Shown here in pieces: positions 1 through 18,494 of a DNA stretch of 34,932 nucleotides; position 1 is the stretch's first letter; each line of letters starts with the position of its first letter. The translations under genes were made by a program, and so were the position numbers. This DNA is from a bacterium ADurb.Bin243. GTDB lineage: Bacteria; Muiribacteriota; UBA9980. The notes under the pieces were generated by a model that ran no database searches, was not told the DNA's origin, and saw nothing but the letters and a program-made list of their open reading frames with translations. The stretch spans positions 1-34,932 of the forward strand of contig MWBZ01000034.1 of assembly GCA_002069765.1 (NCBI GenBank), given 5' to 3'.

Positions 1-198
1 GTTTTGACCGCCGTTGTCCATCGCCAACTGCATTTTGCTAAGAAGGTTCTCGAATTGGTTTTCAATGCTTTCAGTGACGACGTATTCAGAAATTTCCGAT
101 TTCAGGCGGTTTTCTTGAGACGCACTATACGTTATGACTTTTTCAATAGTCCTATAGATGTCTTTTGATTGACTAAATAGTTTTTTTATCAGTTCCAT
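1..198 (-). CDS. brxC: BREX P-loop protein BrxC/PglY, N-terminal part (cut by window edge)
   Basis: Only the first 66 codons are present; the gene runs off the left edge. It starts at ATG 198 with a GGAG ribosome site 6 bases upstream, 33 bases after brxB. The visible part begins MELIKKLFSQSKDIYR and contains the motif EISEYVVTESIENQF; a Glu-x-x-EYVVT segment near the N-terminus is typical of BrxC, the large (about 1,200 residue) AAA-type ATPase of BREX phage-defence systems, where it is needed for methylation and defence. The Walker motifs lie outside the window, so the call rests on this N-terminal motif and on the brxE-brxA-brxB order upstream. A different BREX ATPase (PglY) of the same superfamily is the main alternative. 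Confidence 0.75.
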   Translation of the reverse strand, partial: MELIKKLFSQSKDIYRTIEKVITYSASQENRLKSEISEYVVTESIENQFENLLSKMQLAMDNGGQN

Positions 199-231
199 AG
201 TTTTCTCCTGTGCGTATTCAAAAAATCTTGA

Positions 232-804
232 TTAGCCGCCTACATGGACGGACCGATAGTTTCCGTCGTCCGGATAAAAGCCTAAAAACTTGAGTTTTGT
301 CTTACCAGTTCTTTCGCCGGGATAGAAAAAAATTGTCGGCGCAACGAATTTTCCTTGGAGTTGGCTTTCGATAGCGCCGATCCTTAAATACGGATGGAGC
401 GCTTCAAGGTCTGTAACAAGTAAAATTGGGTTCGTCTGGTCCTTGATCTCGTCTAATTTTTTGTCGAGTCGCGCGAGAAGCTGGCCTTTCGAAACGGCTT
501 CGGCGAGCGATTGATTTGTTTTGTTCCAATCCGTCGGGGCTTTGCCGTCTGCCGAAAGCCAAATTTTTCTAAGCGGTGAGTTGCTTAAAATATCTTGAAT
601 ATTTTCATAGATCGAAAAAGTATTGACCGTCCATCCCGCGTTATTTAGTTTTGAGGTCCAGGCGTTCATGTGCCGCTTGACATCGATGATCTTCGATGTC
701 GAAAAAACCAAATAATATATAGGTTCGAAACTTGCCTGGCGGAAATCTCGGCCGTGTTTTATTCTCTCTAATAGTTCGTCAAAATCAGCCTTTAATGATG
801 ACAT
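232..804 (-). CDS. brxB: BREX protein BrxB (DUF1788)
   Basis: 190 residues, the usual size for BrxB. The DUF1788 signature is clear in the C-terminal half: LEALHPYLRIGAIESQLQGK (about residues 132-151), then a YPGERTGK segment and the ending GFYPDDGNYRSVHVGG, close to the family's conserved LGFY..D.NYR..H.GG end. The role of BrxB is not known biochemically; it is a core BREX component required for defence. Start ATG 804 lies inside brxA (20-base overlap) with GGGAGG just upstream, so brxA and brxB are probably translationally coupled. No catalytic motif is visible. The identification is firm from the conserved C-terminus and from the position between brxA and brxC. Confidence 0.9.
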   Translation of the reverse strand: MSSLKADFDELLERIKHGRDFRQASFEPIYYLVFSTSKIIDVKRHMNAWTSKLNNAGWTVNTFSIYENIQDILSNSPLRKIWLSADGKAPTDWNKTNQSLAEAVSKGQLLARLDKKLDEIKDQTNPILLVTDLEALHPYLRIGAIESQLQGKFVAPTIFFYPGERTGKTKLKFLGFYPDDGNYRSVHVGG

Positions 805-1570
805 TGGCTAATTCCTCCCACGTTTTATAGTTCCAGCCGATCCTGATCAATTCCCCGGCCGATTGCACGATAAAGTAACCTTTTAACGATAATCTCTTTA
901 GTTCTTCACGTACGTCTTCTTTTTGAAGCCCGAATAATTCCCAGTCTGAATGGCCGATTACTGCGCCGTCTCCGAGGCCGGCAAAGTGCAGATCGTAAGC
1001 AAGAAATGCCATAGCCCTCTGAGTCGGCCTGAAAGAATTGATCTTATAATTACCCTTGCTGGCAGGTTGTATGAGACCGAAGTTAACGCAGCAGCCTAGG
1101 ATATAAGAAGAAACTCTTTTTATTGTGCTTTCGGACCAAGGCTTCACAGTTTTGCCGGTCATGTTAGCTTCAACTACGAAAGACCTTGAATCCTCGTTAG
1201 TCATAAATTCTTGCCCGCCAAGATATTTTCTCCAATATACGCTTTTGACGTAGTCTTCGAAAATCAAGTTTGCTCTCGCGGTAAAAAGATAGAATAATTG
1301 GGACAGTTCATTAGACGGAAGGCTGTTAAGAGTTTTTAAAATAGAAGCCGGATAGTCACCCTCCACTAAATATCTCGGGGCAAAACATTCCGACACGATG
1401 TTCCTGAGGCGTCTTGCGGTTACGCTTGAAAAATTGCCGGATTCAAGCGATACCTGGAATAATTCGGTTGTTTTCATTCCAGGCCGCCAGACGGATAAAA
1501 GCGTTCTTGTTTCTTCGATCAAGCCCAATCCGGCCTGAAGTTGGGTCGTGTATTTTCTTTCCTTGCTCAT
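785..1570 (-). CDS. brxA: BREX protein BrxA (DUF1819)
   Basis: 261 residues, slightly longer than typical BrxA (about 200-250). It shows the DUF1819 pattern: an N-terminal segment reading TTQLQAGLGLIEETRTLLSVW, followed by an all-helical body and a winged-helix-like C-terminal part (residues about 200-255). BrxA from other BREX loci binds DNA and is needed for defence and methylation, but its exact job is unknown. Start ATG 1570 overlaps the brxE stop in an ATGA arrangement, with GGGG upstream, and the end overlaps brxB by 20 bases, so the three small genes form one tightly packed transcription unit. The family assignment comes from the overall pattern and neighbours rather than from catalytic residues. 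Confidence 0.85.
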   Translation of the reverse strand: MSKERKYTTQLQAGLGLIEETRTLLSVWRPGMKTTELFQVSLESGNFSSVTARRLRNIVSECFAPRYLVEGDYPASILKTLNSLPSNELSQLFYLFTARANLIFEDYVKSVYWRKYLGGQEFMTNEDSRSFVVEANMTGKTVKPWSESTIKRVSSYILGCCVNFGLIQPASKGNYKINSFRPTQRAMAFLAYDLHFAGLGDGAVIGHSDWELFGLQKEDVREELKRLSLKGYFIVQSAGELIRIGWNYKTWEELANVIIKG

Positions 1571-2079
1571 TTTGTCCCCGAAAAATAAGGAAATACTTTG
1601 GAGCCTTCGCTAAAAGCCTTTAAATAATAATGCGCTATGGTTTTCCAGCCGGAAGTTTTTTTTACGTCTGACGCCTGCCCCACTAATACAGGGCCGACTC
1701 CGTTATGATCCGTTTTTTTGCTGACGTTTTCCAGATATGCCATTGAAGTTTCTTTGTTTGAAATTGTTTTCATTGCCGCTTCGACGGTCTCCGGATCACT
1801 TAAGAGCAGATGGCATTCTCTTTCTAACATCTCCGGAAGCCGGAATAGATGAAAAACACCCTTTCCTACGCCAATATGCTCGTCATGGATTTTTGATGCG
1901 GCCTCTAGCGTTCCGTGATATCTTGCTAAAAATGGCGTTTTACCGAAAACCGGCGATATATAGGCGCCGCTCGCCGACGAAAAAAAGGAGCTGGCCCACC
2001 AAGCATTCTGATGAGATTCTCCGAGAAAGCCGACACTAACTCTCAAAAGCACTATGCTTGTTTGTACTTTGCTTTCCAT
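1567..2079 (-). CDS. brxE: BrxE-family protein, signature of BREX type 6
   Basis: 170 residues. Recognisable BrxE-family features are an N-terminal LLRVSVGFLGE segment, a WWASSFFSSASGAYISPVF block (residues about 28-46) and the central HDEHIGVGKGVFHLFRLPEMLE stretch (about residues 65-85; split as HDEHIGVGKG then VFHLFRLPE). BrxE has no established biochemical activity and is the marker of type 6 BREX, whose order is brxE-brxA-brxB-brxC-pglX-pglZ-brxD-brxHI. Start ATG 2079 has AAAGGA 9 bases upstream. It is the first gene of the operon and lies downstream of a candidate promoter at 2122-2150. I am confident that it belongs to the BREX operon; the BrxE name rests on memory of the family pattern without a profile search. 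Confidence 0.75.
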   Translation of the reverse strand: MESKVQTSIVLLRVSVGFLGESHQNAWWASSFFSSASGAYISPVFGKTPFLARYHGTLEAASKIHDEHIGVGKGVFHLFRLPEMLERECHLLLSDPETVEAAMKTISNKETSMAYLENVSKKTDHNGVGPVLVGQASDVKKTSGWKTIAHYYLKAFSEGSKVFPYFSGTK

Positions 2080-2109
2080 AACATCATGTCCTTTAAAACA
2101 TATGGTTTT

Positions 2110-2150
2110 ATATAGTGCTATATTATACAGAATAACGCAAAATAAATAAA
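2110..2150 (-). promoter_or_regulatory. Candidate promoter and operator of the BREX operon
   Basis: On the minus strand a perfect TATAAT -10 box lies at 2127-2122. The -35 region (2150-2145, TTTATT) is poor, which suggests weak or activator-dependent expression. Just downstream of the -10 box, around the expected transcription start, is a perfect inverted repeat ATATAG-TG-CTATAT (2110-2123) that could be an operator. The brxE start codon is about 30 bases further on. BREX operons often have a dedicated BrxR-type repressor that binds such repeats; no such gene is seen beside it here. Confidence 0.5.
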
Positions 2151-2248
2151 GAGAAATTTAAAAAATTAATTTAAAATTCCATTATTTGTCGATATATAAA
2201 CTCGATAAAATTGATTAGCATTCTGAAAACAAAGATGGAATTGAAGAA

Positions 2249-4267
2249 TTATTCGGTAGCCCCATTAAGTTTTAACAGCTCTATTATATCTTTATTTTGG
2301 GTTTTAACGGCTTTGTGTAAAGGAGTTTTACCTTCATTGTCTTTTATGTTGACGTCAGCTTTGTTTTCAATTAATAATTTTGTTAATTCTAAATATCCGC
2401 GATTTATGGCATAAAAAAGTGCTGTTCTGCCTGTATTGTTTTTGGCATTAACATCAACTTTTTTTTCAAATAGCAACTTAGTTAATTCAAGATTATTATT
2501 GGCAGAACATTTCATTAGCAGTGTTACTCCATCAGAGTATGTCAAGTTAATATTAGCATTTTTGCTTATCAAAATTTTGCATAATTCTGTACAATTTTTC
2601 TGAATTGCATGTAAAAGTAAGGTTTTTTGATTAGTATCTTTTAAATCAATTTCAAAACCGGAATCAAAAATTACTTGTAATTGTTTCAAATCCTTTATTG
2701 ATAACATAATCAAAAATAATTCTTTGTTGATATCGATAGATTTTATAAAGTCATTTAATTTATTTTCGGCATTACTTATCTCTGGTTGCGATTTTTCAAC
2801 TTTGTCTTTTAATTCTGAAATCAAATTTTTATTTTCTTTGTTAGATTCAATTTCCCTTTCAATATCTTCTATTTCCCAATTTTCTGCTTCACGATATAGC
2901 ACCCATTGTTGAGTAAAATTGTTCGTCGTTGTGATGGTTGTGTATCCTTCATCGACAACGTTTAAACTAAACTTTCCTTCGGATTCAAATGATACTGTAG
3001 TTGTTTTCAAAACAGCATGCCTAGATGAAGGTCCAATCCAATCATAAGAGCCAAGTGGATAAAATATTGGTTTTGCAATTTCATAAACATTAGGATTTAT
3101 TTTAGCAACTATGTAAGCGCTCAATTTCCCGATTTTTCCTAATGGTGGCAGATCCTTGCCTACTGCCTGATTAACAGTCCTAACGGTACTTATTTTGTTT
3201 TCGTTATCGCTAATACTGCGTTTCCACTCCTCGATTTCCTTTTTTTTATTTATCAAATCTTCAAGCAATACAGATAATTTTACTGAATTTTCAGTGGTTG
3301 CATATTTATTTATTTCGCATATAACTTTATAAGCTTCGTCTACGTTACCATTGTCAAAATTAGATTTAATATTTTTGAATTCGTTGAAGGTTTTAGTATC
3401 AACTTTCGAAATAACGGATGTTATGTTAGATTTTGTTTTTGATGGAACATTCTCTGGTACAGTCAAATTATTAGTATTATTTGAAGGGTTATCTATATTA
3501 TTAGTTGAGTTATTTACGTTATAGTTCACATCTGTATCACCTGGTCTAACTCTCGTAAATATTGATTCTGTGTTCAGATTGGCTTTCCCACCAGACACGA
3601 TCGATACAATCAGCGAAAAAATTTTGTCGATTCCTAATGCTTTAGATGCGTTAAAGGCCCAATCATAGTTTTGAACCGCATATATTCCACCTAATATTAT
3701 TGCAAAACCAGTAATAATTGCAATAAGCATTCTTTTGAATTTGAATATATAACTTTTGGTTTGAAAGCGATTACCGCTGGTCGGTGTTGAATTATTTGAT
3801 AAATTCGCAAGATATTCGGCGATATGAGCGAAATTTCTTTCTGTGGCATAATCAGCGGCCATTTTTCCTCGATGATCTTTATCGAAGACATTTACGTTGA
3901 GTTTCACCAGCAGTTCGACAAATGTTAAATTTCCAGCAGAGGCGGCAACCATAAGCGGAGTAATTCCATGATTAGTTTTGATATTTACGTCGGCTCCGTG
4001 CCGAACTAACAGCTCGAAGGCATCGACATTTTTATAATGAATTGCATTACAGATTACGGTAGCGCCATTAACATCTTTTGAATTTACATTATAACAACCG
4101 CTATCAAGAATTTGCCTTAACTCATCAGTTTTATTTTCCATTATCAGCCTAGTAACAAGTTGAAATTGGTCTTGTTTCGAGTCATCAATAGGTTGTATCT
4201 GAACGCCGCATTTATTGCAAAATTTTGCTTTATCCTGGTTGTCGCCGTCGCATTTTGGGCATTTCAT
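2249..4267 (-). CDS. Membrane protein with zinc ribbon and ankyrin repeats on both sides of one TM segment
   Basis: 672 residues, AT-rich compared with its neighbours. Domains in order: a zinc ribbon (C3, C6, C17, C20); ankyrin repeats at about 35-155; one hydrophobic segment at about 180-198 (preceded by KFKR); an Asn-rich linker (about 246-268); a Lys/Glu-rich predicted coiled coil (about 330-360); a beta-rich unknown region (about 380-460); a second Lys/Glu-rich helix (about 465-510); and more ankyrin repeats at about 515-670 (HAIQKN, TPLHKAV and similar). The basic residues before the TM segment suggest that the zinc ribbon is cytoplasmic, which would put the C-terminal ankyrins outside; if so, this is an unusual topology. 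Start ATG 4267 has GGGGAG upstream at a rather long spacing. No enzymatic motif is visible, so a scaffold or sensor role is only a guess. It is separated from brxE by 169 bases and a promoter. Confidence 0.85.
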   Translation of the reverse strand: MKCPKCDGDNQDKAKFCNKCGVQIQPIDDSKQDQFQLVTRLIMENKTDELRQILDSGCYNVNSKDVNGATVICNAIHYKNVDAFELLVRHGADVNIKTNHGITPLMVAASAGNLTFVELLVKLNVNVFDKDHRGKMAADYATERNFAHIAEYLANLSNNSTPTSGNRFQTKSYIFKFKRMLIAIITGFAIILGGIYAVQNYDWAFNASKALGIDKIFSLIVSIVSGGKANLNTESIFTRVRPGDTDVNYNVNNSTNNIDNPSNNTNNLTVPENVPSKTKSNITSVISKVDTKTFNEFKNIKSNFDNGNVDEAYKVICEINKYATTENSVKLSVLLEDLINKKKEIEEWKRSISDNENKISTVRTVNQAVGKDLPPLGKIGKLSAYIVAKINPNVYEIAKPIFYPLGSYDWIGPSSRHAVLKTTTVSFESEGKFSLNVVDEGYTTITTTNNFTQQWVLYREAENWEIEDIEREIESNKENKNLISELKDKVEKSQPEISNAENKLNDFIKSIDINKELFLIMLSIKDLKQLQVIFDSGFEIDLKDTNQKTLLLHAIQKNCTELCKILISKNANINLTYSDGVTLLMKCSANNNLELTKLLFEKKVDVNAKNNTGRTALFYAINRGYLELTKLLIENKADVNIKDNEGKTPLHKAVKTQNKDIIELLKLNGATE

Positions 4268-4342
4268 AATCCGTCAATTCTCCCCTTCAGACTTCTCCGA
4301 TATTTTTTCTTTAAATTCGAACAATTCGATGGTATAATAAAT

Positions 4343-4384
4343 CAAAAAAAACAAAAACCTCTCCCGAAAAATGTCAGAAGAGGT
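4343..4384 (-). terminator. Strong intrinsic terminator between the ankyrin gene and the upstream region
   Basis: Arms AGAGGT (4379-4384) and ACCTCT (4357-4362) form a hairpin on the minus strand that is followed by a T-rich tract of about 14 bases (4356-4343). It lies 76 bases before the ankyrin start codon, so it either ends a short separate transcript or acts as an attenuator for that gene. Confidence 0.7.
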
Positions 4385-4580
4385 GTTTTATGCTTATTAA
4401 TCGTCAACAGCCTTTGTGTTCGACAAGTCTAATAATTTTTGTTGTCGCCCAAATAAAAGATTTTGAATATACTATATTCATTAGACTATCACTGTTGAAA
4501 AATTATAGACTTCAAAAATCTGTATGTTTTCAAAAGCACCAAAATTTCCGACACGGAAAAACATTTTTACCATAAATATT
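4343..4580 (-). ncRNA. Candidate structured small RNA (or attenuated 5' leader)
   Basis: A near-consensus promoter (4587-4616) and a strong terminator (4343-4384) enclose about 235 bases with no ORF that has a ribosome site. The transcript would contain a hairpin TTTCCG-TGT-CGGAAA (4545-4559); a 7-bp pairing (4404-4410 with 4492-4498, TCAACAG/CTGTTGA); nested inside it an 8-bp pairing (4426-4433 with 4480-4487, AGTCTAAT/ATTAGACT); and inside that a perfect 17-base palindrome TGAATATACTATATTCA (4464-4480). Promoter, nested stems and terminator together suggest a functional RNA. The alternative is a leader regulating the ankyrin gene by terminator read-through. Two short ORFs (30 and 25 codons) are present but lack ribosome sites. 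Confidence 0.5.
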
Positions 4581-4586
4581 AACTTT

Positions 4587-4616
4587 ATTATAAACATAAT
4601 ATTGAAATATTGTCAA
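4587..4616 (-). promoter_or_regulatory. Near-consensus sigma-70 promoter of the candidate RNA
   Basis: On the minus strand TTGACA (4616-4611) and TATAAT (4592-4587) are both perfect and separated by 18 bases. It is among the best-matching promoters in the window and points away from gene 4657-5322 toward the terminator at 4384-4343. Confidence 0.75.
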
Positions 4617-4656
4617 GAATTATTTGGGAATTTTTAGCACTGCTTTTGTGATCAGT

Positions 4657-5322
4657 TTATATTCTGCCATGCTTATTACGCCTATCCTTCAAATAATCTG
4701 TAAGTGACCTTACGTCTTGGCTTCTCCTGAATATTTCGGCTTGCGGCTCCGAAAACTGGCTCTTATCGATTTTACGGAAAGTCCTTTTTTCGAACTCATC
4801 CTTCAACGCAACACCGTTTGCATCAAACAAAATTTTTCGTTTGCCGTCCTTATGGCTTTTGGTATAACGAATTGTTGAATCATCGTTATACTCATAATAT
4901 TCGCGGCTTTCTTCACGGCCGTTTTTCAAGTAGTTGAACCGAGCCATTTTAGCGGGGCGGCCGTCCGGCTTATAATAAATTTGGATCAAAGGCTTGTTAC
5001 GGCTTTTGTATAACGAAATTCTTGTGTAATCTATGTTGATGGTGCCATCTGGCATTATCATTATTTTTTCAGCCTTGTTGCCGAATTTATCCCGCATTAT
5101 TTCAAGTTCGCGCGTCAATCGGCCTGTTTTGTCATAACTGGGTCGTATTATGCGGCTGCCGCCACCGGGAAGTTTTTCTTCAAAACAATCTCGTCTGCCG
5201 AGACTTTCGCCATCGAGAGTGCTGTGCTGGCAACGATCATATCTTGAATTTTTATCTGGAAAGCAAGTTTCGATTGCTCTGGCCAGGTTTTTAGTACTGT
5301 AGATTTCGATTGTTTTTATCAT
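4657..5322 (-). CDS. Unrecognised 221-residue protein
   Basis: A charged, soluble protein without signal peptide or membrane segment. The middle part (about residues 60-175) is a series of short beta-hairpin-like units with alternating Tyr, Asp, Gly and Lys, for example YDKTGRLTRELE, MPDGTINIDY, YYKPDGRPAKM and YYEYNDDSTIRY. These recall YD/MORN-like repeats, although no exact repeat can be drawn. The C-terminus is a basic helix. Start ATG 5322 is preceded by AGGAGAGG. It is transcribed divergently from the recombination operon at 5464 and followed by the candidate RNA locus. I do not recognise the family and assign no function; the strong ribosome site and normal codon use support a real gene. 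Confidence 0.75.
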   Translation of the reverse strand: MIKTIEIYSTKNLARAIETCFPDKNSRYDRCQHSTLDGESLGRRDCFEEKLPGGGSRIIRPSYDKTGRLTRELEIMRDKFGNKAEKIMIMPDGTINIDYTRISLYKSRNKPLIQIYYKPDGRPAKMARFNYLKNGREESREYYEYNDDSTIRYTKSHKDGKRKILFDANGVALKDEFEKRTFRKIDKSQFSEPQAEIFRRSQDVRSLTDYLKDRRNKHGRI

Positions 5323-5416
5323 GGATATCCTCTCCTTTTTTAGTCTAACTTATTGTAATCGTAATTTTGAATTCAGCCAACGGTTTCCCGCAGCTTTTTT
5401 TAAAGTGTTATAAGTA

Positions 5417-5449
5417 TTTGTATTCGCATACAAAATAAAATTTTATTTT
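5417..5449. promoter_or_regulatory. Two abutting palindromes upstream of the recombination operon
   Basis: TTTGTAT-TCGC-ATACAAA (5417-5434) is followed, overlapping by three bases, by a perfect 18-base palindrome AAAATAAAATTTTATTTT (5432-5449). A possible -10 box TATAAG lies just before them at 5409-5414. They end 14 bases before the ATG at 5464 and almost touch its ribosome site, so a protein bound here could block the operon. The regulator is unknown. Confidence 0.45.
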
Positions 5450-5463
5450 CAGAGGTGATTTTT

Positions 5464-6420
5464 ATGGAGTTTACAAAAGCAGTAAAGAACCAGAGCAAGC
5501 TGAGGATCGCACTTTCCGGCGCGGCGGGGTCGGGAAAAACCTATTCAGCTCTTCAGCTAGCGAAGGGCATCGGCGGCAGAATCGCCGTCATCGACACAGA
5601 GCGCGGGTCGGCATCGTTATACGCCGGTACATTTGACTTCGACGTAGTAAAAATCGAACCACCTTACTCGCCGGAAAAATATATCGAGGCGATAACTTTA
5701 GCCGAAAAATTAGAATATTCGATAATCATAATCGACTCGCTTTCTCACGCCTGGGCCGGAAGCGGGGGCTTGTTGGATATCCACGATGCAATTCAGAAGT
5801 CCAATAAAGGCGGCAACTCCTTCACGGCCTGGAAAGAAATCACACCCATTCAGAACAAACTTATCGACACGATAACAGGCTCTAAATGCCACATCATAAC
5901 AACTATGAGGGCAAAGCAGGACTACGTCGTCGAAAATAACGGCCAGCGAAACATAGTCAGAAAAGTCGGGTTAGCGCCCGTTCAGCGCGAGGGGGTCGAA
6001 TATGAGTTTACAATCTTCATTGAACTGTCTCAGGAACATGTGGCCGTGGCGAGCAAAGATAGAACGAACCTTTTCGACGGAAAGTATTTCGTACCGTCCG
6101 ACCAGACGGGAAAAATACTTGTTGCCTGGCTCAATCAGGAGCCTGAAATGCAAAAACCGCAAACAAAAATCTCGGAAGTTTTTACTCAATCGGAAACATC
6201 TCAAACTAAATCTCAAATAACAAACGCGACTAACGCAACACCGCAAAAAACATTCACCATACAGGATATTGCTAAATCGCTCACGGCCGAGCTGAAAATG
6301 TGTTTCAATCAAAAGCAAATAACAACGCGCCGCATACTGGAATTATGGCAGCGCTTCGACGGAAAACAGGAAGATATACTGCAACACCTTTCTGGGACGC
6401 AGGAACGGAGGGCCGCATGA
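5464..6420 (+). CDS. Sak4-like RecA-fold ATPase, phage-type recombinase
   Basis: 318 residues from ATG 5464, chosen because AGGTGAT sits just upstream. The core is a RecA/AAA_24 ATPase: Walker A GAAGSGKT at 19-26, an IDTERGSA segment at 43-50 and Walker B IIIIDSLSHAW with Asp91. This pattern matches phage nucleotide-binding proteins of the Sak4 group, which work with SSB in single-strand annealing or strand exchange during phage recombination. The last 110 residues are a Thr/Gln-rich linker and a small helical domain (about 265-318). The gene is first in a rightward operon and overlaps the following nuclease gene by ATGA, which suggests a joint role in DNA-end processing and recombination. 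The element also carries its own SSB gene. A function in replication rather than recombination cannot be excluded. Confidence 0.8.
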   Translation: MEFTKAVKNQSKLRIALSGAAGSGKTYSALQLAKGIGGRIAVIDTERGSASLYAGTFDFDVVKIEPPYSPEKYIEAITLAEKLEYSIIIIDSLSHAWAGSGGLLDIHDAIQKSNKGGNSFTAWKEITPIQNKLIDTITGSKCHIITTMRAKQDYVVENNGQRNIVRKVGLAPVQREGVEYEFTIFIELSQEHVAVASKDRTNLFDGKYFVPSDQTGKILVAWLNQEPEMQKPQTKISEVFTQSETSQTKSQITNATNATPQKTFTIQDIAKSLTAELKMCFNQKQITTRRILELWQRFDGKQEDILQHLSGTQERRAA

Positions 6421-7565
6421 ACAGATACGACCATCTTTCTTATTCCAGTCTAAGTAAATATATTGCTTGCCCGGCGCAGTTCAGGTTATATATGACCGAA
6501 AAAAAATCTCTGCCGACCGAGCCCGCCATCGAAGGAAACAAACGTCATGCAGAGATCGCCAGCCGCCTGTTGGAAGCAACCATCGACCAATCCGGGTTTG
6601 GTGACCGTCTCAAAAACTTCTGCCGCCATATCTTGAAAAGTCCAACAGCCGTGGAGCGCGAGTTCGAACTCGACTTTATTACCAACAGGGTCATAGGTAA
6701 AATAGATGCCTTTTCGATTCATGGAAATCAGGCTGTTATCGTTGACTGGAAAGGCTATCCCGGTTACAACGAAGATCTTCAATTGAAAATCTACTCGTTG
6801 GCGGTCAGAGAACTTTACCCGGAGGTCGAAGTCTGTCACGGGTATTTCTTCTTTACCGGACCGGACTATTACGAACCACACTCGTATTTCTTAGGTGACC
6901 TGAATGCCTTTTCGGGCGAAGTCGCTCGAATCATCGACACCATTTCAGATGATCAGGATTTCAAGCCGTGCCCTGGCCCGCACTGCAGCCGTTGTGCTTT
7001 CTCCGAGCGCTGCGAAGTGGCGGCTAACTTCTCTATTGTAAAAATGGAGTCGCTCAGCGAGGTCATCGAGGCCGCTCGGAGGATATTCGCCGCTGAAGCC
7101 ATGGTTGAAAAAATAAAAGAACGTGTAAAAGCCTGGATGGCTGATCATGGCGTTGATGTCCTGCCGATAGATAGCGATAATAAGTATTATCTAAGTCCTT
7201 CAATCAGCTTCAGGAACGGAAAGATAAAATCAGAAAAAGAACGCGAGGCATGTGAAAAAATAATTCAGATAGCGATATCCGAGAGCCAGGCGCCATCGCT
7301 CAACAAGATAACGAACTCAGAATCGGCCGACGGAAAAATAATTCAGATAGGAAAGGCGGTGAAATCATTGAAGGAAAAGATAAAAATGTCCGACCTTGCA
7401 GATATGATGAAGGCTGCCGGGCTTCTTTCATCAAACGCCACGAATGCCGATGCCAGCGGTGCGATACGCGATAGGCTCGGCACCAATTTCATAATGGCAA
7501 CCGAGGATCAGAAAATCCGGTTGTATCAGGAGCTTACGGATCTTCTCGAACGTAAGGCCGGATAA
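6417..7565 (+). CDS. Cas4/RecB-like PD-(D/E)XK nuclease with a probable Fe-S cluster
   Basis: 382 residues from ATG 6417, which overlaps the previous stop as ATGA and has GGAGG 5 bases upstream. The nuclease core is visible: His44, GKIDAF with Asp97, IVDWK with Asp110 and Lys112, and a QLKIYSL motif around Gln122. One cysteine near the N-terminus (C18) and three or four after the core (C185, C190, C193, C199) match the layout that binds a 4Fe-4S cluster in Cas4, AddB and related phage nucleases. The C-terminal 180 residues are helical and unassigned. Such nucleases resect DNA ends; pairing with the Sak4-like ATPase suggests a recombination or repair cassette. It is not part of a CRISPR locus, since no array or other cas genes are present. 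Confidence 0.8.
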   Translation: MNRYDHLSYSSLSKYIACPAQFRLYMTEKKSLPTEPAIEGNKRHAEIASRLLEATIDQSGFGDRLKNFCRHILKSPTAVEREFELDFITNRVIGKIDAFSIHGNQAVIVDWKGYPGYNEDLQLKIYSLAVRELYPEVEVCHGYFFFTGPDYYEPHSYFLGDLNAFSGEVARIIDTISDDQDFKPCPGPHCSRCAFSERCEVAANFSIVKMESLSEVIEAARRIFAAEAMVEKIKERVKAWMADHGVDVLPIDSDNKYYLSPSISFRNGKIKSEKEREACEKIIQIAISESQAPSLNKITNSESADGKIIQIGKAVKSLKEKIKMSDLADMMKAAGLLSSNATNADASGAIRDRLGTNFIMATEDQKIRLYQELTDLLERKAG

Positions 7566-7590
7566 AGTATAAACGAATACAGGCAAAAGC

Positions 7591-7622
7591 AAAGGCGAGG
7601 TCCGAAGGCGGGCTTCGCCTTT
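7591..7622 (+). terminator. Inverted repeat after the nuclease gene, possible weak terminator
   Basis: AAAGGCGA (7591-7598) pairs with TCGCCTTT (7615-7622) around a 16-base loop. Only three T residues follow directly, so termination would be inefficient and the next gene may still be co-transcribed. Confidence 0.4.
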
Positions 7623-7681
7623 ACTATTTATAAACGAAAGAAACGAATTAGAAAAGGATGACGACTACATCGAGGATGGTG

Positions 7682-8599
7682 ATGGATATGGATACGAGGG
7701 TTACGGATTTACTGAAATTGCTTGAGGAACGGCTGGCTAAGATCGACCGAGACGAACTAATGAAACTATTTGCCGCAAGAATAAAATATCACCATAGTTA
7801 CTCTTTCAATAATATGTTCCTCGCCGGAATCCAACTTTGTCGGCAACATGGGCGTTTATTCGATCTGGACATCTTTTCAACCCTCTGGCTGGCGCCATTT
7901 ACGATATGGAATAAATGGGGTTACCACGTAAAGCGAGGGGCGAAAGCGCTCAACATTCTTGTCCCGTTTATGGCAAAAAAGAAAGCCGCTCAGCAAAGTA
8001 AAAATGCCGAAGAAAACGAGTGGCATGAGAAAAAAGTAGTAGGGTTCGGAATAAGAGCGGTGTTCGACGTAAGCCAGACGGAAAAATTATCGGCAAACGA
8101 AGATGCCCTTCATCGTCGCACTACCATTTCGGCAGCACATACCGGATTTGAAGAATTGATTCGTCAAGTTGAGGCTGCCGGACTGCGCGTGCTATCTGCC
8201 CCATTGAGAGAGTGCGAAGGTGGGCATATCAGCGGTAACGTTATTACGCTCAATATCAATAATACCGTCGAGGCCAGATATTGCACTCTTCTTCATGAAA
8301 CGGCCCACTACTGCCTCGGACATCTGAATGCCGGTAATTTCAATGAACGCTCAGTTGAGGAACTGGAAGCCGAGTCATGTGCATTCGTTATAGGCGCGAA
8401 TCTTGGCATCGACATACCATCGCAATTCTATATTGCCAGCTGGAATGGCGACGGCAAGACTATCAGAAAATCTTTAGCCAGGATCGACGCTGCCGTGAAG
8501 AAAATGATGGCCATATTTGAAATTTCAAATGAAGCGGAGGTAAAAATATGTCCAAATCAGACTGCTTGCGCTGCCCTGCCTGCGGAAGCAGTGAGTTAG
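7682..8599 (+). CDS. ArdC-like antirestriction protein with zinc metallopeptidase motif
   Basis: 305 residues from ATG 7682, chosen because GAGG lies 6 bases upstream; earlier in-frame ATGs at 7658 and 7676 lack a ribosome site. The N-terminal half resembles the ArdC single-strand DNA binding domain (YSFNNMFLAGIQ, then WNKWGYHVKRGAKALNILVP, about 40-95). The C-terminal half has HETAHYCLGH (His205, Glu206, His209) and, about 25 residues later, EELEAESCAF, the usual zinc-ligand layout of IrrE/ImmA-like peptidases. ArdC proteins carried by plasmids and conjugative elements protect incoming DNA from restriction. The last 17 or so codons overlap the next gene and may be a read-through tail. A peptidase that cleaves a repressor (ImmA-type) is the alternative role. 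Confidence 0.8.
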   Translation: MDMDTRVTDLLKLLEERLAKIDRDELMKLFAARIKYHHSYSFNNMFLAGIQLCRQHGRLFDLDIFSTLWLAPFTIWNKWGYHVKRGAKALNILVPFMAKKKAAQQSKNAEENEWHEKKVVGFGIRAVFDVSQTEKLSANEDALHRRTTISAAHTGFEELIRQVEAAGLRVLSAPLRECEGGHISGNVITLNINNTVEARYCTLLHETAHYCLGHLNAGNFNERSVEELEAESCAFVIGANLGIDIPSQFYIASWNGDGKTIRKSLARIDAAVKKMMAIFEISNEAEVKICPNQTACAALPAEAVS

Positions 8600-8754
8600 A
8601 TCGAATTGACGAACGCATTCGCGGGTATAAATTTCTTCAGGAAAGACTCTGCCGCAGATGCAAGCACATAGTTGCGTTCATATTCAAGATAATCGAAATA
8701 AAAATCAAAAACGCAAAGATCACCGACGACCGATACGTTTTCGTAACCGATTAG
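8548..8754 (+). CDS. Small zinc-ribbon protein
   Basis: 68 residues with an excellent ribosome site (CGGAGG, 7 bases before ATG 8548). Two CxxC knuckles (C9/C12 and C35/C38, plus C6) form a zinc ribbon; the rest is basic and rich in Ile and Lys, ending in TDDRYVFVTD. The gene overlaps the 3' end of the ArdC-like gene by 52 bases in another frame. Its function is unknown: zinc ribbons of this size in mobile elements are often nucleic-acid binding or transcription-modulating, but nothing here decides it. Confidence 0.7.
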   Translation: MSKSDCLRCPACGSSELDRIDERIRGYKFLQERLCRRCKHIVAFIFKIIEIKIKNAKITDDRYVFVTD

Positions 8755-8815
8755 GCTCAGTCATTGAGTCTAACGGAGAAACCGTAAAAAATCTTATGAT
8801 TATTGGAGGGAACTG

Positions 8816-8893
8816 ATGAATCCGGTATTACTGAACCTTATCAAAAAAGCCCTGAAATTTATAATAGAACAGGCGAAATCGAAGAAAATTTGA
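8816..8893 (+). CDS. 25-residue cationic amphipathic peptide
   Basis: A very short gene with a strong ribosome site (GGAGGG, 5 bases before ATG 8816); it begins MNPVLLNLIKKALKFII and ends EQAKSKKI. Hydrophobic residues fall every three to four positions and there are six lysines against one glutamate, so it would form an amphipathic positively charged helix. This composition is seen in phenol-soluble-modulin-like and type I toxin peptides, but also in small membrane-associated regulators. It is the last gene before a perfect terminator (8915-8936). A six-codon frame overlaps its start (TGATGA), which may couple translation. Expression and role are inferred only from the ribosome site and context. 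Confidence 0.5.
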   Translation: MNPVLLNLIKKALKFIIEQAKSKKI

Positions 8894-8914
8894 TGTTATA
8901 GGTTTTTCCCACTC

Positions 8915-8936
8915 CCGGCCATAAAGGCCGGTTTTT
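8915..8936 (+). terminator. Intrinsic terminator of the recombination/antirestriction operon
   Basis: Perfect stem CCGGCC-ATAAA-GGCCGG (8915-8931) followed by five T residues (8932-8936). Confidence 0.9.
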
Positions 8937-9007
8937 ACCGACCACTCGTCACAACTATAATCTGGTATAAGTCGATAGAATCAAATTATATTTCAGGAGG
9001 GATTGCT

Positions 9008-9217
9008 ATGGAAGACATTACTCTAATGAACACTTGCAAAGACAGGAATCAGAGTTATTCCGGGTCATCAAAGTCATTTGTAACGTCAAACGAAATCCAT
9101 GCCGACGAAAATAATTTCAATTCGAAAAAGAGCGTCCTCGGGCTCAACTACTACGAGGAGTCATCGCGCTTCAGCGATAAGCCTAAAAACGAAACGCCCG
9201 CCAAAGACAGCAAATAA
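9008..9217 (+). CDS. Small hydrophilic protein of unknown function
   Basis: 69 residues, rich in Ser, Asn, Lys and Asp, with no hydrophobic segment and low predicted structure; it contains a short LGLNYYEESSRF motif (about 44-55). The ribosome site AGGAGGG 6 bases before ATG 9008 is close to ideal and the gene is bounded by its own terminator (9235-9255). Possible -10 boxes (TATAAT 8956-8961; TGGTATAAG 8963-8971) lie upstream, so it is probably transcribed alone. I do not recognise the family; its size and disorder are compatible with an anti-defence or regulatory small protein but do not show it. Confidence 0.6.
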   Translation: MEDITLMNTCKDRNQSYSGSSKSFVTSNEIHADENNFNSKKSVLGLNYYEESSRFSDKPKNETPAKDSK

Positions 9218-9234
9218 CTGCCGGCGGCTATCGT

Positions 9235-9255
9235 GCGCGCGCAAGCGCGCTTTTT
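9235..9255 (+). terminator. Intrinsic terminator after the 69-residue gene
   Basis: GCGCGC (9235-9240), loop GCAA, GCGCGC (9245-9250), then TTTTT (9251-9255). It works on the plus strand only; the convergent gene ends two bases later. Confidence 0.9.
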
Positions 9256-9256
9256 C

Positions 9257-9631
9257 CTATCGGTCGCGCTTCTTTTTACGCTTCATCAAATCCAGTGCCC
9301 TTCTGGCCATGTACCCTGTACCGGCGCTCCCGGCAGCAACCGTTCCGAGCCATACAAGAGGCGCGGACGGAATCCCTGGATGGAAGGCCATTTCTTTCGT
9401 CCAATCGCCAACCCTGTAGCCACCGTACGCTCCGGCCAGTATCGCAGTCAGTGTCTTGAACAGGCTGGTCGTGCCGCTGACGTTAGATGCCACGAGATTT
9501 CCGGTCAGGGCAGGAAGAAGGCTGGCCGTCAGTAGCCGATTTCGGTCAACATAGACCTTACGGCTTCTTATGACGTCGCGTTCGTCGCGGCCTGTACTCG
9601 AAATCTTCATCCGCGGAATACTAAATAACAT
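9257..9631 (-). CDS. Small membrane protein, unknown function
   Basis: 124 residues from ATG 9631 with GAGGTGAT upstream. Two or three Gly/Ala-rich hydrophobic stretches are visible (about 34-54, 58-73 and 91-108), with a basic N-terminal region and a very basic C-terminal tail (MKRKKKRDR). Small Gly/Ala-rich membrane proteins of this kind occur in phages and integrative elements, for example as holin-like or superinfection-exclusion proteins, but I recognise no specific family. It is convergent with the 69-residue gene and lies downstream (leftward) of the primase-helicase gene, possibly at the end of that transcript. Confidence 0.6.
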   Translation of the reverse strand: MLFSIPRMKISSTGRDERDVIRSRKVYVDRNRLLTASLLPALTGNLVASNVSGTTSLFKTLTAILAGAYGGYRVGDWTKEMAFHPGIPSAPLVWLGTVAAGSAGTGYMARRALDLMKRKKKRDR

Positions 9632-9710
9632 TTATCATCACCTCGGTTTATTATAGCCGCAAATTCTATTATTGGCAACGTTACTTTGCAATAACATTCG
9701 AATATTCTAG

Positions 9711-9866
9711 TTAATTTTTGATTCTATTTTTATAAATCGCCGTCATCGCCATCATTGTCGTCAGAATGTCCACTATTACTTTGTTGTGGACAGGCAGATA
9801 AAATACAGGCGTTAATATTTCACCGTCAATGCTGCCGTCACAGTCTATTCTATGGCCAAAAGATCG
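9711..9866 (-). other. Open frame without a clear start after the primase-helicase gene
   Basis: A minus-strand frame stays open from 9866 to the TAA at 9711 and overlaps the end of the primase-helicase gene. It reads, in part, DCDGSIDGEILTPVFYLP and then VIVDILTTMMAMTAIYKNR, the second part being a plausible membrane helix. The first ATG is near the end and no ribosome site is evident. It may be a small membrane protein started at a rare codon, a remnant, or chance; otherwise I see nothing in 9632-9844. Confidence 0.2.
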
Positions 9867-12427
9867 TTAACATCAATGTCGGCGTTTTGACCTCGCTCCG
9901 GCCTGTCACTGAGTTTTAGTATGTGACCGGTAAAATGGAGCAGCATTTTTTCGTGTGCTCCAATGTCGCGGCCTTTCTCAATAGTCAAAAGTCTTCGGTC
10001 CAGAACTACCAAATCGTCTTCGGGGTTCTTTTTCGCCTTGGTCCTCTTTCCTGAATTGGCGTTTACGTCAATGTAACGCGCCTTATTTTTCCTGGGTTCG
10101 TAAAGGCCCCGGCCGGTCAAATCTTCAAGTTCCTTACGGGTGACTTCGCTTATCGTCAGCACGAGGTTGGCGTCGTGGAATATGTCCATTGCCTCTCGTA
10201 TCTGGCCTTCCTTGTTCAATTGTGATCCCATAATCACGGCTACATCCATTTGTTGCGTGTGGTTGCGCACGATTTCAGATATTTTTTGAAGACGCAGTTG
10301 ATTCGTAGCAAATTCTCTTGACATCTGAGATTTAGATTGTCCTGGAACGGCCTTACTGTTGATTTGAAGTTTCTGTATGTAATCGATAAATATGGCGCCG
10401 ATGTTATACCGTTGGCGAAGCCTGGTTATAGCCGCTACGAGATCATTGACGTCATAGTTTTCATCGATTATTTTGAACCTGTTGCTGCTAGCCTGGCATC
10501 GAAGCGTCTCCACCGCTGCCTTTATTCCACAGTTCCATTGCTCGCGCGGCGTTTCCTTCATGTGTTTTATTATGGCGCGCGTGTTGCTGTTCTGATTCAG
10601 CGTGATCTGCGCTTTCCTGTTGATCATCTTGAATTGCAGCGCCTTGGCCGATTCTTCCAGCGTGAAAAAGATAAAGGTTTTATCCGGATACTCTTCGATC
10701 ATGTTGAGAAAAATGTTGAGCATGAGCGTTGTTTTGCCGACGCCAGAGTTGCCGGCGACTATAGTCACTCCACCCTCTTTTATCCTGAACTTTTCCATTT
10801 CTTCTGTGCCATCGAAGCACTCAAAGCCGGTTTTCAAGCCGGTTATGTTTTCGCAGAGCGCCTCGTTCAAAAGGCTGTCGAAGTTGTAATCAAGGCTGTG
10901 TTCAACCTGATCGGCCGAGTATTTCGCTCGTATTTCTTTCAGTCCGGCCTCAATTTTATCGATGTCCCTGTCGTCTAGCCCTTGGATAAGGGTGTTTTCG
11001 ATATCTTTGTTCATGTCAGCGACGATCTTTCGTTCACGATGCGTTTCGAGTTCGGTAGCTACAGTCTCACGGCTATAACCACTCGCTTCGACGGTGGCTG
11101 CAATAAAATCCTCACCATACCTGAAATTGATCGTGTTTATTCCCGCGTAGCATTTTGCCGTCTCGGCCCAGTATTCTGATTTTTGAATATCGTTCGTGAG
11201 GTTGTGTTTTTCAGCTAACCGCTTTGCCTGCCATTTTGCCGCGCTTTCCGGCTCATTCGCGAAAAAACTTCGAAGCGCATTGAGCCCGTTTTCGACGAAG
11301 TATTCATCGGGGTCCTTTACATGCCTTTCAGGTTTTGATAGCGATCTCATTTTTCGCGGGTCGATGACAAAAACTTCGACGTCTGATTTTTCCATCAGCA
11401 GTCCCACGGCTTTATCTGCATTTGCGACTCCCGTGATAATTCCATCCTCCTTGGGCTTGTCGTTATCGAAGCAAATTATCGCTCGATTTATTGAGTATGA
11501 TCGAATTCCTTCGAGGTGCTTCTCAGAAAGGTTTCCCTGACCTACAGCGACAATGTTCGGAATTCCGCAAGCGGTAAGATATATCGCATCTGGATAGCCT
11601 TCGACGACGATGATTGAATTTTGTCTGCGGCAATTATGAAGGTTGAACAGGTCTGTTTTTTCGAGACCGCTTGTGCTATCCCATCTCACGCCGGTGTGCT
11701 CTTTACCATCATGCGTTGTCAAATCTGCTCCGCGAGAGCAAATTGCCCTTTTTATAAAACCAGTTATCCGCCCCCAGCGGTCACGATAGGGAAATGCCAG
11801 CCTGAAGTTGTCGCCGAAATACCCATTCAGATGAAGTTCCTTTATGCGCGATTTTATTATATCGCCATCATTTTTGTGCCTGTCCTGAAGATATTCCCTT
11901 ATTTCGCCCGTCGGCGGAAAATATAGCCATTCAGTGCGTCTCAGGGCTTCGGCATCGTAATGCCGCTCTTCTACAAGGTAGCGCAGTGCCTCCCGGCCCT
12001 GTTGCTCATAAAGCTGCGGTTTGAAATTCTCGACTATTTCTTCGTATAGAGCCGCTTCCGTATAGCGGCTGCCATTATCGCAGTTTGGCGGCTTGATGTC
12101 AAACTTATCGAATTCGGACAACAATTCCGGTCGAAAATTTTCAATTAGCCACTGCATTGCCGACTTGAATTCAACATTCCTTGCCAATTCAACAAGTTTG
12201 AATATGTCGCCGCCGACGCCGCAACTGAAACAGTTGAAGTAATTGCCGCCATGCTTCAGGCCGAAACATCGCCCGTGTTCGGAACCATGGCGGGTAATGC
12301 AGTTGCCGAGTAGTGTGTGTTCATCGATGTGCAAGGTTTCGAACAGGTCAAGCCGTCTTGCCACCTCGGCGATGTCGATCGACTTGAGTTCGTTTTTGAT
12401 GTTTTTGAACAATTGTTTTCTGTTCAT
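9845..12427 (-). CDS. Primase-helicase fusion: CHC2 zinc finger, TOPRIM primase and DnaB-type helicase
   Basis: 860 residues. The N-terminal DnaG-type zinc finger has C43, H47, C66 and C69. The TOPRIM domain shows VVEGYPDA (Glu276) and ICFDND (Asp321, Asp323). The C-terminal half is a hexameric DnaB/RecA helicase with Walker A GNSGVGKT (559-566) and Walker B FIDYIQKL (Asp682), followed by GSQLNKEG and a late Arg-rich segment. The architecture resembles T7 gp4 and Twinkle: it would unwind the fork and make primers on the lagging strand. Start ATG 12427 has a weak AGTATTGAA upstream region with AAGGAG about 8 bases away on the minus strand. It lies downstream of the candidate origin (12,461-12,645), so a replicative role for the element itself is likely. 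Confidence 0.92.
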   Translation of the reverse strand: MNRKQLFKNIKNELKSIDIAEVARRLDLFETLHIDEHTLLGNCITRHGSEHGRCFGLKHGGNYFNCFSCGVGGDIFKLVELARNVEFKSAMQWLIENFRPELLSEFDKFDIKPPNCDNGSRYTEAALYEEIVENFKPQLYEQQGREALRYLVEERHYDAEALRRTEWLYFPPTGEIREYLQDRHKNDGDIIKSRIKELHLNGYFGDNFRLAFPYRDRWGRITGFIKRAICSRGADLTTHDGKEHTGVRWDSTSGLEKTDLFNLHNCRRQNSIIVVEGYPDAIYLTACGIPNIVAVGQGNLSEKHLEGIRSYSINRAIICFDNDKPKEDGIITGVANADKAVGLLMEKSDVEVFVIDPRKMRSLSKPERHVKDPDEYFVENGLNALRSFFANEPESAAKWQAKRLAEKHNLTNDIQKSEYWAETAKCYAGINTINFRYGEDFIAATVEASGYSRETVATELETHRERKIVADMNKDIENTLIQGLDDRDIDKIEAGLKEIRAKYSADQVEHSLDYNFDSLLNEALCENITGLKTGFECFDGTEEMEKFRIKEGGVTIVAGNSGVGKTTLMLNIFLNMIEEYPDKTFIFFTLEESAKALQFKMINRKAQITLNQNSNTRAIIKHMKETPREQWNCGIKAAVETLRCQASSNRFKIIDENYDVNDLVAAITRLRQRYNIGAIFIDYIQKLQINSKAVPGQSKSQMSREFATNQLRLQKISEIVRNHTQQMDVAVIMGSQLNKEGQIREAMDIFHDANLVLTISEVTRKELEDLTGRGLYEPRKNKARYIDVNANSGKRTKAKKNPEDDLVVLDRRLLTIEKGRDIGAHEKMLLHFTGHILKLSDRPERGQNADIDVNDLLAIE

Positions 12428-12460
12428 TTCAATACTCCTTTTTTTATTATTTTTTTTGAA

Positions 12461-12494
12461 AAAACCGTAAGCCGTTTTACGGCGCTACGGTTTT
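12461..12494 (-). terminator. Large branched hairpin / terminator before the primase-helicase gene
   Basis: AAAACCGTA (12461-12469) pairs with TACGGTTTT (12486-12494); inside, GCCG (12471-12474) pairs with CGGC (12480-12483). On the minus strand six T residues follow the stem. It could terminate the transcript of the upstream gene (12652-14241) or sit in the leader of the primase-helicase mRNA. Confidence 0.6.
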
Positions 12495-12495
12495 A

Positions 12496-12525
12496 CTTAT
12501 AAATATCTTTTAAGATATTTATAAG
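12496..12525. repeat. 30-base perfect inverted repeat near the candidate origin
   Basis: Arms CTTATAAATATCTT (12496-12509) and AAGATATTTATAAG (12512-12525) are fully complementary with a two-base centre. No T tract follows, so it is not a terminator; a dimeric DNA-binding protein site or a cruciform at an origin is more likely. Confidence 0.75.
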
Positions 12526-12530
12526 CGTTT
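12515..12530. repeat. 16-base direct repeat ATATTTATAAGCGTTT, copy 1
   Basis: This sequence, which includes the right arm of the 30-base inverted repeat, recurs exactly at 12875-12890 inside the neighbouring coding region. The identity extends to about 23 bases if one inserted A is allowed (TTTTAAG before both). Confidence 0.7.
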
Positions 12531-12567
12531 GTGAGTTGGCTACTGTATTGAATTTTCAAATAACTAT

Positions 12568-12645
12568 TATCACCCGAAAACAACTTTTTCTCTTATTTTA
12601 TCACCTGAAAACAAAAAATATCGTTTTTTTAGCACTTAAAAACAA
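12568..12645. repeat. Three iteron-like repeats with 31-base period (candidate replication origin)
   Basis: TATCACCCGAAAACAA (12568), TATCACCTGAAAACAA (12599) and TAGCACTTAAAAACAA (12630) start exactly 31 bases apart, about three helical turns, so a protein would bind all on one face. Copies 1 and 2 differ at one base in 16, copy 3 from copy 2 at three. Copies 1 and 3 are followed by CTTTTT. The tract is very AT-rich and lies between a possible initiator gene and the primase-helicase gene, the usual place for an iteron origin. They could instead be operators. Confidence 0.6.
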
Positions 12646-12651
12646 CTTTTT

Positions 12652-14241
12652 TTATTTTGCTTTCGGGTTCTGGAACATATCCGAAATAACGTCCTTCAGG
12701 TTGCGCTTTACGTATATTTTTATAGTCTGGCCTTTCAATTTGCGTGGTTGGATTTGGCTGAGCCGCTTTAAATCGGGATCGACCCTGGCAATGATGCCTG
12801 AGTTTACTAAATTACTTATGGATTGAATGAGCTGACCAATGGCCTTACTCGTCTGATTATATTCTATTTTAAGAATATTTATAAGCGTTTCGGTTTTATG
12901 CGCTATGACTTTCATGCCTGGGACTTTCAGTGCGGCGTTACCTTTACTACTGATAAGCAGTTGAGCAAGTAAATAATCGGCCGTAGAACTGTGCCGCAGA
13001 GCGTTCAATATTATAGGAGTCCAACTGAAATAGCCTTCGACGAATAAGTCTGGCCCCTTTTTCCCAGTGTTGACAATGCAGCCAATAAACTTCGCGCTGA
13101 TGTTCAGGATGTATTTTTTGTTGTCCTGGCTCTTTTCTGTAATGAAGCGGCCGAGTTCCTCTTTTATCTGCCTGTTATGGTTTGATTCACCCCCGGCTTT
13201 ATAGTGATATATTACGAACTCCAGAAAGTATAAAGCATCAATGGCCTCATCGATGTCGCGGTAGATCTCTGTCGAACCACTATGGTAACCCAGGTATTCG
13301 ATCATCTTGGCCTTGGTCAGGACAACGCCCAGTCCGTTGAACTTTCTCTGTATATAAAGTTCATGGAGAATAATATGCGCGATTTTATGGCTTAAAGCAT
13401 TTAATTTTATCCTTTTCATTCCGGCGTCAATTATTTCGGCTTCGTCGCCAGCGCAAGAGCTTATTATTTTTTTTGCAGAAATATGGTCTACGTAACTTTT
13501 GAAATTGAAGCGGATAGTCTTGTTTTCTACGGTGCGGCAGATATAGCTGCCATGCAAATATTCTCCGGCCGCCGTCAAAACCTCGAAAATTTCGGCTAAC
13601 GTCAGTTTCCTCTGAAGTTTGTCGGCTGCCGCCTGAAGGATTTTTGCCATTTGCGGCAATTCTCGGAACTTTTTCGAAAACAACGGTTTGATTATTGTCA
13701 TACCGGATTGAATTGCGTGGCGGGCAATTTTGGATATTTTTGTCACGTCAACCACAGTTTGGCCGATGCTTGAACGAATTTTTGAAAGCATCTTTTTGAA
13801 CCGCTTCAATATTGCGATCCATGCATTTTTCAAATCTTCACCGCTACCTTTGAAATAGTGGGTTCTTTCCGTGAACGGTGGCGGAGCAGGACCGGAATAA
13901 CCATTTCGCATAACTATAGGGTTACATATTTCGGCTGTATCGTCTATTGCTACAAACGCTCGGACTTCTTTTCCGGCTATAAAGGCGTCTTCGAAGTTTT
14001 TGATGTTTATTTTTACTTCTGGTAGTTCTTCAGGAATGCTTTCGATGTCTGGTAATGCTTTTACCCATTCCGTTATGTCCACTTTATTTAACGCCTTCAT
14101 CAAATTAACATTAGGGCAGGTTAACTTTTCCGGAAAATCCATGACGGCGTATTTGGTCTTGCCGTCAGCTTTTTTAATCCGAGCCGCGTCAAGCAAATAT
14201 GCAATTATAACGTTGATATAAAAGATTTTTAACTCTTTCAT
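12652..14241 (-). CDS. Possible replication initiator, family not recognised
   Basis: 529 residues from ATG 14241, with GGAG 5 bases upstream (a GTG six bases earlier would sit on the ribosome site). The protein is basic, helical and has no signal or Walker motif. Two segments look like winged-helix DNA-binding units: about 285-345 (YIQRKFNGLGVVLTKAKMIE onward) and about 435-500 (DYLLAQLLISSKGNAALKV followed by TETLINILKIEYNQTSKAIG). The ending is strongly basic. Position decides the proposal: it lies in the replication block, directly next to three 31-base iterons and a 30-base inverted repeat, and upstream of the primase-helicase. Plasmid initiators with tandem winged helices behave this way. 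Without a profile match the initiator role is inference. A 16-base repeat shared with the origin region lies near its 3' end (12875-12890). Confidence 0.75.
   Translation of the reverse strand: MKELKIFYINVIIAYLLDAARIKKADGKTKYAVMDFPEKLTCPNVNLMKALNKVDITEWVKALPDIESIPEELPEVKINIKNFEDAFIAGKEVRAFVAIDDTAEICNPIVMRNGYSGPAPPPFTERTHYFKGSGEDLKNAWIAILKRFKKMLSKIRSSIGQTVVDVTKISKIARHAIQSGMTIIKPLFSKKFRELPQMAKILQAAADKLQRKLTLAEIFEVLTAAGEYLHGSYICRTVENKTIRFNFKSYVDHISAKKIISSCAGDEAEIIDAGMKRIKLNALSHKIAHIILHELYIQRKFNGLGVVLTKAKMIEYLGYHSGSTEIYRDIDEAIDALYFLEFVIYHYKAGGESNHNRQIKEELGRFITEKSQDNKKYILNISAKFIGCIVNTGKKGPDLFVEGYFSWTPIILNALRHSSTADYLLAQLLISSKGNAALKVPGMKVIAHKTETLINILKIEYNQTSKAIGQLIQSISNLVNSGIIARVDPDLKRLSQIQPRKLKGQTIKIYVKRNLKDVISDMFQNPKAK
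12875..12890. repeat. 16-base direct repeat ATATTTATAAGCGTTT, copy 2
   Basis: Exact second copy, 360 bases from the first, inside the coding region of the possible initiator. A second binding site for the protein that recognises 12515-12530 would explain it. Confidence 0.7.
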
Positions 14242-14351
14242 TGACACTCCTTATTATCAGGAAAATTTAGATGTGGGAGGCCATTTTGTTGGCCCCCCGG
14301 CTGTATTCCTCCTCGGTTCACTAACTGCTGTGCTGCTTGACTATTGGCCAT
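14238..14351 (-). CDS. Possible 37-residue overlapping small protein
   Basis: An ATG at 14351 with GGGAG about 10 bases upstream opens a 37-codon frame rich in Gln, Asn and Gly (MANSQAAQQLVNRGGIQPGG onward). It overlaps the end of the OB-like gene by 31 bases and its TGA overlaps the ATG of the next gene as ATGA. The double overlap suggests that it may serve to couple translation between the two. Half of it is also the tail of a longer chance frame, so I am not sure it is a real protein. Confidence 0.35.
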   Translation of the reverse strand: MANSQAAQQLVNRGGIQPGGQQNGLPHLNFPDNKECQ

Positions 14352-14734: not shown

Positions 14735-14751
14735 TTTTTGCTCCTTTTTAT

Positions 14752-14784
14752 GATCGCCGGGAGTTTTTTTACTCCTCGGCGATC
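14752..14784 (-). terminator. Hairpin between ssb and the OB-like gene
   Basis: GATCGCCG-GGAGT (14752-14764) pairs with ACTCC-TCGGCGATC (14771-14784), with a T/A loop. On the minus strand only weak T-richness follows, so it may stabilise or partially terminate the ssb transcript. Confidence 0.55.
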
Positions 14785-14792
14785 GACCTTAA

Positions 14793-15272: not shown

Positions 15273-15390
15273 TTGGCCATCCTTTTCAATTCGTAAGTTT
15301 TGCTTTAACGATGCGTCCCCTCGAAACTATGCCTTATAGTTTTTTACTGCGAGCAGTTACGCTGTACATCTATTTTCGCCTACATCGCCG

Positions 15391-17166: not shown

Positions 17167-17206
17167 AGTGCCTCCTGTTTTTAATGTGATTAAGCTTTCT
17201 ATTTTA

Positions 17207-17235: not shown

Positions 17236-17236
17236 T

Positions 17237-17282: not shown

Positions 17283-17323
17283 GATAATATAAGTAAAAAT
17301 AATAAGTTTAAGGAGGCTGCTTT

Positions 17324-18466: not shown

Positions 18467-18494
18467 ATTGAATTTATCCTCATATTTTCAGAAT

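Follow-up and report, generated by a model that had tools for sequence, protein, structure and literature searches.

The head of a BrxE-bearing BREX operon at a contig end, best read as BrxL-type and carried by a tRNA-Thr-integrated island

The window, meaning the whole stretch of 34,932 nucleotides that was analysed (bases 1-34,932 of contig C34), starts at the contig's own end and belongs to a 5.0-Mb assembly (G000) of 317 contigs that is 96% complete. At positions 1-2079 it carries four open reading frames on the minus strand, read from 2079 toward 1, in the order brxE-brxA-brxB-brxC, with brxC present by its start:

1567-2079, minus strand: brxE, the first gene of the operon, coding for a BrxE-family protein of 170 aa (NF033447, and identity to related BrxE proteins)
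785-1570, minus strand: brxA, coding for BrxA of 261 aa (PADLOC PDLC02445, 356 bits; Pfam PF08849, 89 bits)
232-804, minus strand: brxB, coding for BrxB of 190 aa (PADLOC PDLC02465, 323.5 bits; Pfam PF08747, 41.9 bits)
1-198, minus strand: brxC, the first 66 of about 1210 residues of BrxC, cut by the contig end (PADLOC PDLC02483)

The original prediction had named these four genes as a BREX operon, and the BrxA, BrxB, BrxC and BrxE family profiles all match. The BrxA and BrxB matches exceed the Pfam cut-offs, and the BrxC fragment gives 100 bits over 64 residues (profile positions 4-67 of 1212). The BrxE profile search that the prediction called for returned a family match to NF033447 (148.6 bits for a cut-off of 40); PADLOC gave nothing for BrxE, even with the E threshold relaxed to 10, which we did not count as absence of BrxE. 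Genes, order and strand are as first described. The overlaps are found for brxE/brxA (4 bp, ATGA) and brxA/brxB (20 bp), but brxB and brxC are separated by a gap of 33 bp. BrxA, BrxB and a BrxC-like protein in one operon are a mark of a BREX system of any type, as is PglZ, and the set of the first three is found here, with BrxC as 66 residues only. Four family matches in the conserved order are far beyond chance and confirm that this is an operon of BREX, an anti-phage system.

Looking further into the window, the operon is followed on its upstream side by a set of genes that ends at a tRNA:

2249-4267, minus strand: zinc-ribbon/ankyrin-repeat protein, upstream of the operon (Pfam Ank_2, 148.7 bits; DZR below cut-off)
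4657-5322, minus strand: island protein of 221 aa with no family match
5455-6420, plus strand: phage-type AAA/Sak4-like protein (phrog_1366, 299.7 bits; Pfam AAA_24)
6300-7565, plus strand: PD-(D/E)XK exonuclease, Cas4-like (Pfam PDDEXK_1, 59.8 bits; phrog_69)
7658-8599, plus strand: ArdC-like antirestriction/metallopeptidase protein (Pfam Peptidase_M78 and ArdcN; phrog_7245)
9845-12427, minus strand: fused primase-helicase (DnaG 117.9 bits, DnaB 59.9 bits; phrog_239; Pfam DnaB_C and Toprim)
14793-15272, minus strand: single-strand DNA binding protein (Pfam SSB, 33.4 bits)
17324-18466, plus strand: phage-type repressor with a helix-turn-helix (Pfam HTH_19/HTH_3; phrog_8)
18981-19235, plus strand: small helix-turn-helix protein, a putative excisionase by its size and place (Pfam HTH_17, 36.5 bits)
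19304-20515, plus strand: tyrosine integrase (Pfam Phage_integrase, 89.2 bits; phrog_1, 250 bits)
20609-20682, minus strand: intact tRNA-Thr(CGT), the integration target (ARAGORN)
20609-20656: attachment repeat of 48 bp, the tRNA 3' half, in perfect direct repeat with positions 5460-5507 of contig C19 of the same assembly

Pfam and phrog matches thus place integrase, repressor and replication genes on the same element as the operon, as had been proposed. The gene of the ankyrin-repeat protein, which has an N-terminal zinc ribbon, immediately precedes brxE and shares its strand, and the region 2080-4432 is AT-rich (GC of 0.317 against 0.436 in the BREX genes). Two further large proteins of the island (12652-14247, 531 aa; 15391-17235, 614 aa) are without any family match. 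In the viral contigs searched, no relatives of BrxE, of the primase-helicase or of the AAA protein were found.

The tyrosine integrase adjoins the tRNA-Thr(CGT). A search of the 5.0-Mb genome gave exactly two copies of the 48-bp repeat, with zero control hits. The copy on C19 has on one side DNA that matches the flank of the tRNA in two congeneric genomes and on the other unrelated DNA, the pattern that the two ends of an insertion should show. Within the window, homology to congeneric genomes begins at about 20570, and searches of three congeneric genomes did not detect the island DNA (1000-20560). An integrase beside a tRNA, and the tRNA end directly repeated at either end of the element, are the marks of a tRNA-integrated island, and both are found here; the C19 copy, on a contig unjoined to the window, probably marks the far end of the same island. 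The proposal that the operon is cargo of a tRNA-integrated element is therefore well supported by the position of the integrase, the exact duplication and the failure to detect island DNA in three congeners. Jointly with the reading of the operon given below, and at the same probability, the island would occupy the window from 1 to about 20609 and continue beyond the contig start. Its visible parts add up to about 26 kb, and with the missing BREX genes it would exceed about 38 kb.

In the probable far end (C19:1-5459), the contig edge truncates a gene for a HATPase sensor; with it lie genes for a protein of 398 aa that matches no family and for a cytosine-C5 DNA methyltransferase, and a gene that is AlbA/Schlafen-like (named by sequence reading, with a weak PADLOC match). 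These genes stand in close order and resemble a second defence cassette. As for the tRNA itself, we rejected the idea that the congeneric tRNA sites are empty, because beside the same tRNA-Thr, at about 14290-14490 of G002:C191 and about 3660-3870 of G003:C596 (loci L044 and L047), the flank reads as the C-terminal end of a different tyrosine integrase, of which C19 retains a degraded copy. Given this other integrase end beside the congeners' tRNA, the tRNA-Thr looks like a shared, repeated insertion point.

The operon breaks off within brxC. In the whole assembly, profile searches found no other BrxC piece, no PglZ and no BrxL, all three in searches for which control genomes gave matches, and no PglX, in a search without matching control genomes. 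That pglX, pglZ, brxL and further brxC are found nowhere in an assembly that is 96% complete is what one would expect if the island carried a decayed or truncated BREX remnant and no working system. We consider this unlikely: the four frames, as far as visible, are open and have normal spacing, the break falls exactly on a contig end in an assembly split into 317 contigs, and the C19 sequence, the probable other end of the island, likewise begins at a contig edge. Since the window starts at base 1 of the contig, the break in brxC is the contig end and no artefact of the choice of window; given that the cut falls precisely on this edge, the simplest reading is that its remainder is probably unassembled or unbinned.

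As pglX, pglZ and brxL are absent from this fragmented assembly, the type of the operon had to be inferred from its relatives. A BrxA scan of genome contigs yielded 11 relatives, and a BrxE homologue lies directly ahead of brxA in all of them. The whole operon could be read in nine, as brxE-brxA-brxB-brxC-pglX-pglZ-brxL with pglX as one gene or split, and in the same nine BrxL adjoins the operon. A survey of 369 genomes for the BrxE family, an independent route, gave three carriers, one of which (L053) supplied a tenth full operon, and the eleventh is on the conjugative plasmid pTHIMO01 of Thioflavicoccus mobilis (NC_019941.1). On a Hymenobacter plasmid a brxE-brxA-brxB start and a pglZ-brxL end are seen, with broken genes. 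The proteins of the window are closest to those of ten operons, with identities of 59-65% for BrxB and 51-54% for BrxA, and BrxE is 34-43% identical to its counterparts in close related operons. In many related operons pglX is split into two adjacent genes (L026, L027, L028, L030, L031 and L032), and in several a GmrSD-type nuclease lies between pglX and pglZ (the intervening genes tested were GmrSD). A divergent brxE-brxA-brxB-brxC start (L052; BrxA 24% and BrxB 25% identical) was left out of the typing, its contig being too short.

Type 1 is the common BREX type and type 6 a rare one. The original prediction assigned the operon to type 6, taking brxE in first position as diagnostic. A genuine type 6 operon would read brxE-brxA-brxB-brxC-pglX-pglZ-brxD-brxHI, and a BrxE-family protein does head the operon here; a 2026 survey moreover states that BrxE is exclusive to type 6, and it places types 5 and 6 within type 1, as subsets of it (PMC12839542). 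When BrxE was compared with the BREX-6 BrxE model (NF033448), it reached 19.5 bits for a cut-off of 80 and thus fails, and the BrxE proteins of the relatives are likewise below this cut-off. All 11 related full operons carry brxL, and neither brxD nor brxHI was seen in any of them; BrxL was above the TIGR02688 cut-off in the three relatives scanned. The intact PglX proteins tested among the relatives score 584-719 bits with the BREX-1 model, above its cut-off of 500, and 318-424 bits with the BREX-6 model, short of its cut-off of 900. PglZ, present in all complete relatives, fits no curated type: it scores best with the BREX-6 model, though below its cut-off (145-191 bits, cut-off 400), and gives 90-101 bits with the BREX-1 type A model (cut-off 270), remaining below both BREX-1 PglZ cut-offs. 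Among 399 Pseudomonadota genomes no BREX-6 BrxE was found, the controls being silent too, hence there is no type 6 comparator. We rejected the type 6 label on the model cut-offs for BrxE and the relatives' PglX and on the gene content of the relatives, and regard a type 6 operon as very improbable. The rule that brxE in front is diagnostic does not hold here either, given that the complete related operons with brxE first all end in brxL.

Taken together, these results indicate that positions 1-2079 are the head of a BrxE-bearing, BrxL-type operon, closest to BREX type 1, carried as cargo by an integrative island; we give this reading a probability of roughly 0.8. By the gene content and profile scores of its relatives, the operon is best read as part of a type-1-like lineage, which appears to sit between types 1 and 6, since the relatives' PglZ scores higher with the BREX-6 than with the BREX-1 type A model. 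The related operons as read here do not fit the claim of the 2026 survey (PMC12839542) that only type 6 has BrxE. We lean towards a broader view, in which a wide BrxL-type lineage headed by BrxE-family proteins, occurring across unrelated phyla and both on plasmids and on islands, would be intermediate between types 1 and 6 and contradict that exclusivity, with BrxE as an uncharacterised accessory. The NCBI models already keep the BrxE family (NF033447) apart from BREX-6 BrxE (NF033448), and we therefore do not claim the combination of brxE with a BrxL-type operon as undescribed.

Concerning BrxE itself, the sequence has no match in the PDB. Its predicted structure is confident (mean pLDDT of 92) and has no match among solved or viral structures (best E values of 1.7 and 2.7), so that no function is proposed from the fold. 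As the first gene, conserved in all these operons, brxE more likely encodes a working part than a passenger.

BREX systems of any type are marked by adenine methylation at specific sites and by restriction of phages. In BREX-1, methylation by PglX marks self DNA and the remaining proteins block phage DNA that is unmarked. By analogy with the studied BREX-1 systems, the operon would work as follows. The DNA missing after brxC would most probably hold pglX, perhaps split, perhaps a GmrSD-type nuclease, then pglZ and brxL. BrxE, a putative accessory, would be the first protein translated from the shared transcript. PglX would set a self mark by methylating a short asymmetric DNA site, and BrxA, BrxB, BrxC, PglZ and BrxL would halt the replication of unmarked phage DNA. 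The island would have been inserted by its own tyrosine integrase into the 3' half of the tRNA-Thr(CGT), and may still be mobile today.

This is largely an ordinary BREX find, of a known kind, and its type label has to be changed. It amends a rule of thumb: brxE heading a BREX operon does not alone make it type 6. It also records BREX as the cargo of an island that targets a tRNA. The complete operons gathered here offer material for studying what role BrxE has in type-1-like systems, in which knock-outs and methylation assays already work.

Compared with other tRNA-targeted islands that have a tyrosine integrase, this one shares the integrase at the tRNA 3' end, the duplication of the tRNA 3' half, the repressor, the primase-helicase and the single-strand DNA binding protein, and differs in that the proteins scanned included no recognisable capsid, terminase, relaxase or conjugation protein. 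With BREX type 6 the operon has in common the BrxE-family gene ahead of brxA and, in its relatives, a PglZ nearest the type 6 model, whereas the window's BrxE and the relatives' PglX fail the type 6 models and the relatives have BrxL, with no BrxD or BrxHI seen. BREX type 1 is matched by the brxA-brxB-brxC-pglX-pglZ-brxL order of the complete relatives, by BrxL and by a PglX above the BREX-1 cut-off; the differences are the extra BrxE-family gene in front and the relatives' PglZ, below both BREX-1 cut-offs. The plasmid pTHIMO01 likewise carries brxE-brxA-brxB-brxC-methyltransferase-...-pglZ-brxL on a mobile replicon, but that replicon is a conjugative plasmid and has an extra UvrD-like helicase and other genes between the methyltransferase and pglZ; its BrxA and BrxB are 37% and 45% identical to those of the window, respectively.
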